From Cyanobacteria bacterium J069 (GTDB taxonomy: Bacteria; Cyanobacteriota; Cyanobacteriia; Elainellales; Elainellaceae): a stretch of 35,514 nucleotides of DNA. Shown here in pieces: positions 3,019 through 3,510 of this stretch. Where the stretch lies: positions 1-35,514 of the forward strand of contig RFIF01000572.1 of assembly GCA_003695655.1 (NCBI GenBank), read 5' to 3'. The position numbers were made by a program, and so were the translations under genes. Position 1 is the stretch's first letter; each line of letters begins with the position of its first letter. The notes beneath the pieces are model-generated. The model made no database searches. It was not told the origin of the DNA and worked only from the letters and a program-made list of their open reading frames with translations.

Positions 3019-3171
3019 ATGAATCTTTTCAAGGTCATTGGACAGGCTCTCCAATTTCTGACTGAGGGAGCATCCGAAATTTTTAGCCCTGACCGAGACG
3101 AATACCCGAAAACGGGCGTACAGCCCTATGAGGGCGACCCGCTGTCTGAGCGCGTGGAGTCTACTAAGTAA
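3019..3171 (+). CDS. Small protein of unknown function (50 aa), start re-assigned inside the longer ORF
   Basis: MNLFKVIGQALQFLTEGASEIFSPDRDEYPKTGVQPYEGDPLSERVESTK; the upstream extension from 2902 looks non-coding; terminator-like hairpin downstream. Confidence 0.6.
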   Translation: MNLFKVIGQALQFLTEGASEIFSPDRDEYPKTGVQPYEGDPLSERVESTK

Positions 3172-3238
3172 GTCCCAGAAAGTAAGCCTCAGCGAGTCAG
3201 TCCCAGCCCAGTTTAGTCAATTCACCTGTGGCAAGAAG

Positions 3239-3329
3239 GGCGTTGCTGAATCAGTCTATGAAACGGTTTCTGAAGACCTTGGGACTCTGCCCCAAATCCG
3301 GCGAAATCATAGCGTCATTCAGCAACGCC
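3239..3329. mobile_element. 91-bp MITE-like element with 23-bp imperfect TIRs, flanked by 8-bp direct repeats gcaagaag (3231-3238 and 3330-3337)
   Basis: Left end GGCGTTGCTGAATcagtCTATGA; reverse complement of right end GGCGTTGCTGAATgacgCTATGA (20/23 identical); perfect flanking 8-bp duplication gcaagaag. Confidence 0.85.
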
Positions 3330-3367
3330 GCAAGAAGCTTCAGGAAACCGGGAAACGGCCCCCCTCC

Positions 3368-3417
3368 ACAGAAAGCCCCCCTCAGCAGCGTCAAGCTTGC
3401 AAAGGGGGGCTTTCTGT
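3368..3417 (+). terminator. Strong hairpin, probable terminator or attenuator downstream of the 50-aa ORF
   Basis: acagaaagcccccct (3368-3382) and aggggggctttctgt (3403-3417) are perfect 15-bp arms with a 20-nt loop; little poly-T follows. Confidence 0.6.
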
Positions 3418-3449
3418 TAAGCATTCGTTCTAGTGTTGCTCTGGTGTTC

Positions 3450-3491
3450 CTTTCCTGGTGTTGCTTTCCTGGTATTGCTTTCCTGGTGTTG
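3450..3491. repeat. Tandem repeat, 14-bp unit ctttcctggtgttg x3, with degenerate copies just upstream
   Basis: ctttcctggtgttg ctttcctggtattg ctttcctggtgttg read directly. Confidence 0.9.
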
Positions 3492-3510
3492 CTTTCATAG
3501 ATGAGTGACG

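Follow-up and report, generated by a model that had tools for sequence, protein, structure and literature searches.

Transposition of IS1 is normally held tightly down by InsA and frameshifting, and its classical target duplication is 9 bp. Within the same family, ISAba3 makes 8-bp target-site duplications (TSDs; PMC6382973), the IS1-like ISMae3 occurs in Microcystis (PMC11448079; likened here by family), and in E. coli, where the IS1 transposase promoter overlaps the IRL, a mini-IS1 with IRL and IRR alone has been reported, as a preliminary result, to transpose (PMC12428005). Among small passenger elements, Nezha is a MITE of Anabaena and Nostoc (Zhou et al. 2008, cited in PMC10969869 and PMC3049150) that PMC3049150 attributes to an ISNpu3-like IS whose TIRs match; its likeness to the element described below is one of description, as a cyanobacterial MITE of this kind. 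MITEAba12 of Acinetobacter (PMC6382973) is similarly short (~113 bp), non-coding and uniform in length, and has TIRs common to a resident IS; it differs in its TSDs, which are 9 bp long, and in its ends, which are of the ISAba12 type (GGCTTTGTTGCAC-like) and not of the IS1 type.

The window, by which we mean the whole stretch of DNA analysed (35,514 nt; Cyanobacteria bacterium J069, assembly GCA_003695655.1, contig RFIF01000572.1, positions 1-35,514, forward strand), contains a 91-bp element at 3239-3329. It consists of a left TIR on the plus strand (GGCGTTGCTGAATCAGTCTATGA, 3239-3261), a non-coding interior of 45 bp to which no strand is assigned (3262-3306), and a right TIR on the minus strand (GGCGTTGCTGAATGACGCTATGA, 3307-3329); the two 23-nt arms, 45 nt apart, are complementary at 20/23 positions (87%). 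On both sides stands the 8-bp direct repeat gcaagaag (GCAAGAAG, strandless), whose copies at 3231-3238 and 3330-3337 are 100% identical. This anatomy, re-derived base for base, is the one that an earlier note had read from the letters alone, and that note was also correct in placing the element between a 50-aa ORF and an inverted repeat (3368-3417), a region to which it adds 99 bp (91 + 8). When we scanned the window for exact 8-bp duplications enclosing 23-nt TIRs with at least 15/23 matches, 3231-3337 was the sole structure found (20/23); 98 of 100 first-order Markov shuffles of the window had no such structure, two had one at 15/23 and none had a better one. With only 91 bp, the element is too small to hold transposase coding capacity.

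The element is multi-copy: a same-genome search of the kind the earlier note had proposed returned 25 matches at ~23 loci in the J069 assembly (4.61 Mb, 626 contigs, 86% complete). One copy at a different site (C102) is the same as the window element over 91/91 bases, and both of these identical copies carry perfect TSDs; most remaining copies form one group with ~88% identity to the window copy. Flanking sequence and octamer vary between copies. Nineteen copies are complete, and their duplications are exact over 8 bp in 12, matched at 7/8 positions in one, exact over 7 bp in two and over 6 bp in one, and not recognisable in three, while left and right flanks taken from different copies gave 0 exact 8-bp matches. 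One further copy (C407) is split by a second type of palindromic repeat, with the element halves still recognisable. As a separate observation, the halves are also recognisable in a copy (C322, L028 502-750) split by ~150 bp that carry a 10-bp duplication (CTCTGTCCTC) and are apparently another small mobile element.

Joined flanks of the 19 copies (100-160 bp per side) were then compared with relatives, among which G001 was the only same-genus genome reached. At the site of copy C350, G001 is empty: 91 bp and one octamer are missing and a single gcattctt is present, vs. the gcattcct that flanks the copy in J069 (~330 bp of alignable flank; 93% identity over the 200-bp joined query). The C182 site in Kaiparowitsia (G016) also lacks the element, with a less clean junction. 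At the window locus itself, G001 keeps the small ORF and the left flank and has no element before the downstream hairpin, and the right flank is too diverged for a base-exact empty site with a single gcaagaag; the orthologous empty site that the earlier note had proposed to look for is seen at base resolution for the sister copy C350. Because it occupies ~23 loci with fixed ends and site-specific 8-bp duplications, and because a sister copy has an empty site, the window element belongs to a genuine mobile family. The earlier description of a non-autonomous, MITE-like element is therefore supported by the copies, the related TIRs and the sister empty site; where that note had named a single-copy element, with no cyanobacterial TIR relatives and no empty site, as grounds against it, we found copies, relatives and an empty site of a sister copy.

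The family of the mobilising IS had been left unnamed in the earlier note, on the ground that an 8-bp TSD fits several DDE families, and the end matches now assign it to IS1. We consider the 3239-3329 element very probably an IS1-type MITE, ordinary in kind, because full-length elements with the same ends encode IS1 transposases and make 8-bp TSDs. The closest full-length element (754 bp, G026) has a right end (IRR) that is GGCGTTGCTGAATCAGTCTATGA, identical to the window left TIR at 23/23 positions, and it encodes a DDE_Tnp_IS1 protein (PF03400, 83 bits vs. a cut-off of 24); this particular copy shows no clear TSD. In all, we collected 23 distinct full-length IS1 elements that have GGCGTTGC ends and a frame encoding an InsA-like zinc finger. 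Eleven of these are bounded by perfect 8-bp TSDs, a size that, for the MITE and the same-ended IS1s, lies within the 8-9 bp of the IS1 family. In IS1, insA (with a CxxC zinc finger) and insB lie in different frames that are joined at a poly-A frameshift site. These partners contain CPEC..CKEC, and several copies change frame at an A-run, but the shift varies and some have a single open frame; their Pfam zinc-finger matches score below the cut-off.

Cyanobacterial IS1s (L077, L078, L107, L111, L242 and L251) resemble the window element in their GGCGTTGC.. ends and 8-bp duplication, but are ~750-800 bp long, encode a DDE_Tnp_IS1 transposase and differ in the arrangement of their ends: their upstream ends (IRL) are mostly GCATAAT and their downstream ends (IRR) often GCTGAAT, whereas the window MITE has GCTGAAT at both ends (the right TIR is likewise of the TGAAT, IRR-like type), i.e. 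the IRR type twice. Since the IRL overlaps the transposase promoter in E. coli IS1, a gene-less passenger would be freed from that constraint and could carry two right-type ends. We would picture the insertion as follows: IS1 transposase supplied in trans would bind both element ends, an 8-bp staggered cut would open a lone gcaagaag lying 3' of the 50-aa ORF, and filling of the gaps would double the octamer to give the TSD; at the window site the element would merely extend the 3' intergenic region, where a transcript would fold as a hairpin. Origin by simple internal deletion of a particular IS1 was considered but found no support, as a by-eye comparison with the IS1s examined found similarity at the ends and none in the interior.

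No intact IS1 with matching ends was found in the 86%-complete, 626-contig J069 assembly; IS1 relics there comprise a broken PF03400 fragment (C439) and a partial InsA-like match (C296), both without TIRs, and the J069 helper may be missing, whether lost or unassembled. It is a serious possibility, to which we give somewhat less than even credence, that the window copy is a fossil whose ancestor lost its IS1 helper and whose family no longer moves, and both the lack of an intact helper in the assembly and the group, ~88% identical to the window copy, that holds most J069 copies would fit this; against it, two copies identical over 91 bp sit at separate sites with perfect TSDs, and a repetitive helper could be hidden in assembly gaps. 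A fossil state bears on present activity, not identity, and is compatible with the IS1-type MITE reading.

We regard it as very unlikely that the MITE is moved by another DDE family with 8-9 bp duplications and GG-starting ends (IS5/IS903-like, IS1595 or ISL3). TSD size alone is compatible with several families, and a Microcystis MITE with 8-nt repeats has been assigned to ISL3 (PMC11448079), but the ends of that MITE differ (GGCTCTTCG; PMC11448079) and the only full-length elements found with the ends of the window element encode IS1 transposases, in several genomes and with 8-bp TSDs, so that this alternative is largely refuted already by the IS1 end match. Finally, it is extremely improbable that the element is primarily an RNA hairpin or a REP/ERIC-like transcription-control element selected by the host, with secondary transposon features. 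Both strands do fold much more strongly than shuffled sequences (z -4.8 and -6.0), and in an alignment of 14 relatives 86.6% of the TIR-stem cells are paired, some through changes on both sides. Such a fold, however, is the TIR pairing expected for any such element, ends bound by one transposase co-vary regardless, RNAalifold finds no interior stem and a covariation term of nearly nil (-0.02), the Rfam search had no match at or above a family's gathering score, and site-specific TSDs require transposition. A promoter scan of the window element found none, and nothing here argues for a separate function as RNA.

Returning to the IS1-type MITE, we found element and candidate helper together in Richelia intracellularis RC01. 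This genome, unlike J069, holds hundreds of MITE ends alongside IS1 copies (563 MITE-end matches vs. 0 for the reversed control, and 57 IS1 matches), including intact 750-755-bp IS1s with 8-bp TSDs; the Richelia MITE end (GGCGTTGCATAAGTGCGGGATGAATTAG) and the Richelia IS1 end (GGCGTTGCATAAGTGCGGGATGAATTGA) are equal at 26/28 positions. One Richelia locus (L248 571-1370) is an 800-bp hybrid in which 48 bp of a MITE end are fused to a 752-bp IS1 within a perfect 8-bp TSD (aataaaaa). Having its own TSD, this hybrid implies that an IS1 transposase probably used a MITE end there, and it lends indirect support to mobilisation in trans. The 91-bp repeats of RC01 (CBZS contigs; L126-L189 in part) share with the window element their length, outer TIR, 8-bp TSDs and an interior similarity above chance, but have 64-69% overall identity to it and a different inner TIR (CAGGGGATGA). 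Closer to the window element are the 91-bp elements of Kaiparowitsia implicata (G016; L130, L134, L045), with 87-89% identity over their full length, the same TIRs and an 8-bp TSD where intact; unlike J069, however, this genome has few copies, and the IS1 elements resident in it have ends that depart at several positions of the inner TIR.

In a pattern search of 85,462 species genomes, elements with the same TIRs occurred in many cyanobacteria: the exact paired-TIR pattern was found in 65 stretches, all recorded as cyanobacterial, of which ~45 are in Richelia and the others in Kaiparowitsia, Oculatella, Nostoc, Anabaena, Moorena, Fischerella and more. The pattern had 0 matches in viral contigs (IMG/VR), and a plasmid search gave one Calothrix match (76%). 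In a collection made with spacers of 50-85 bp, 67 of 86 distinct elements are exactly 91 bp, a count to be read with the spacer window, which biases length, and the dominance of Richelia in mind. In their interiors, the window element and the Richelia 91-bp copies are 44-53% identical, which exceeds the level in composition shuffles (p <= 0.006), and because of this excess the sequences suggest that the 91-bp elements share descent, as opposed to independent shrinking of IS1s; the length and interior parts kept across several cyanobacterial lineages suggest one old or horizontally spread lineage. We propose tentatively, and with more doubt than conviction, that the J069, Kaiparowitsia, Richelia and other 91-bp elements form a single MITE lineage whose length would be fixed while the interior is about half diverged, as the IS1 transposase would need two right-type ends at a set spacing, and which would have multiplied to hundreds of ends in Richelia, a diatom symbiont. 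Longer elements (134-238 bp) that share the outer TIR are present in other cyanobacteria (L061-L066 and L071-L073; G042, G019 and G023) and are apparently further MITE families.

The 91-bp family seems to be undescribed, and an earlier description under another name is possible: a literature search with the TIR string matched only unrelated primers, in a corpus that did not include the Nezha paper or Wolk et al. 2010 (Anabaena 7120 MITEs). An IS family is now given to a cyanobacterial MITE group that has copies, TSDs, an empty site and, in Richelia, a same-genome helper, which offers a system for testing how IS1 mobilises passengers, and the Richelia case in particular offers a test of whether MITE amplification goes with genome decay in a diatom symbiont.

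At the window site itself the insertion is an ordinary one, placed between a small conserved gene and the hairpin that follows that gene. The upstream 50-aa ORF (MNLFKV..., MNLFKVIGQALQFLTEGASEIFSPDRDEYPKTGVQPYEGDPLSERVESTK, 3019-3171) has no Pfam match and is kept in the same-genus G001 with mostly third-position changes. Downstream, the earlier note had described a terminator-like hairpin starting at 3368; a strong inverted repeat does lie there (ACAGAAAGCCCCCCTCAGCA / TGCAAAGGGGGGCTTTCTGT, 3368-3417), but the terminator part of that description calls for a reservation, as the scanner made no intrinsic terminator call and a T-run is absent. In G001 a similar hairpin stands at the matching place and is followed by TTTTTG. 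A second palindromic repeat, with ends ..CTTACGCAGTTG / CAACTGCGTAAG.. and a central CGCG-rich hairpin, occupies 2690-2787; its type is represented in the J069 genome by 40 or more scored copies and by 212 candidates, one of them the copy inside the 91-bp MITE on C407. At 3427-3496 a 14-bp unit (CTGGTGTTGCTTTC) occurs in tandem as five imperfect copies.
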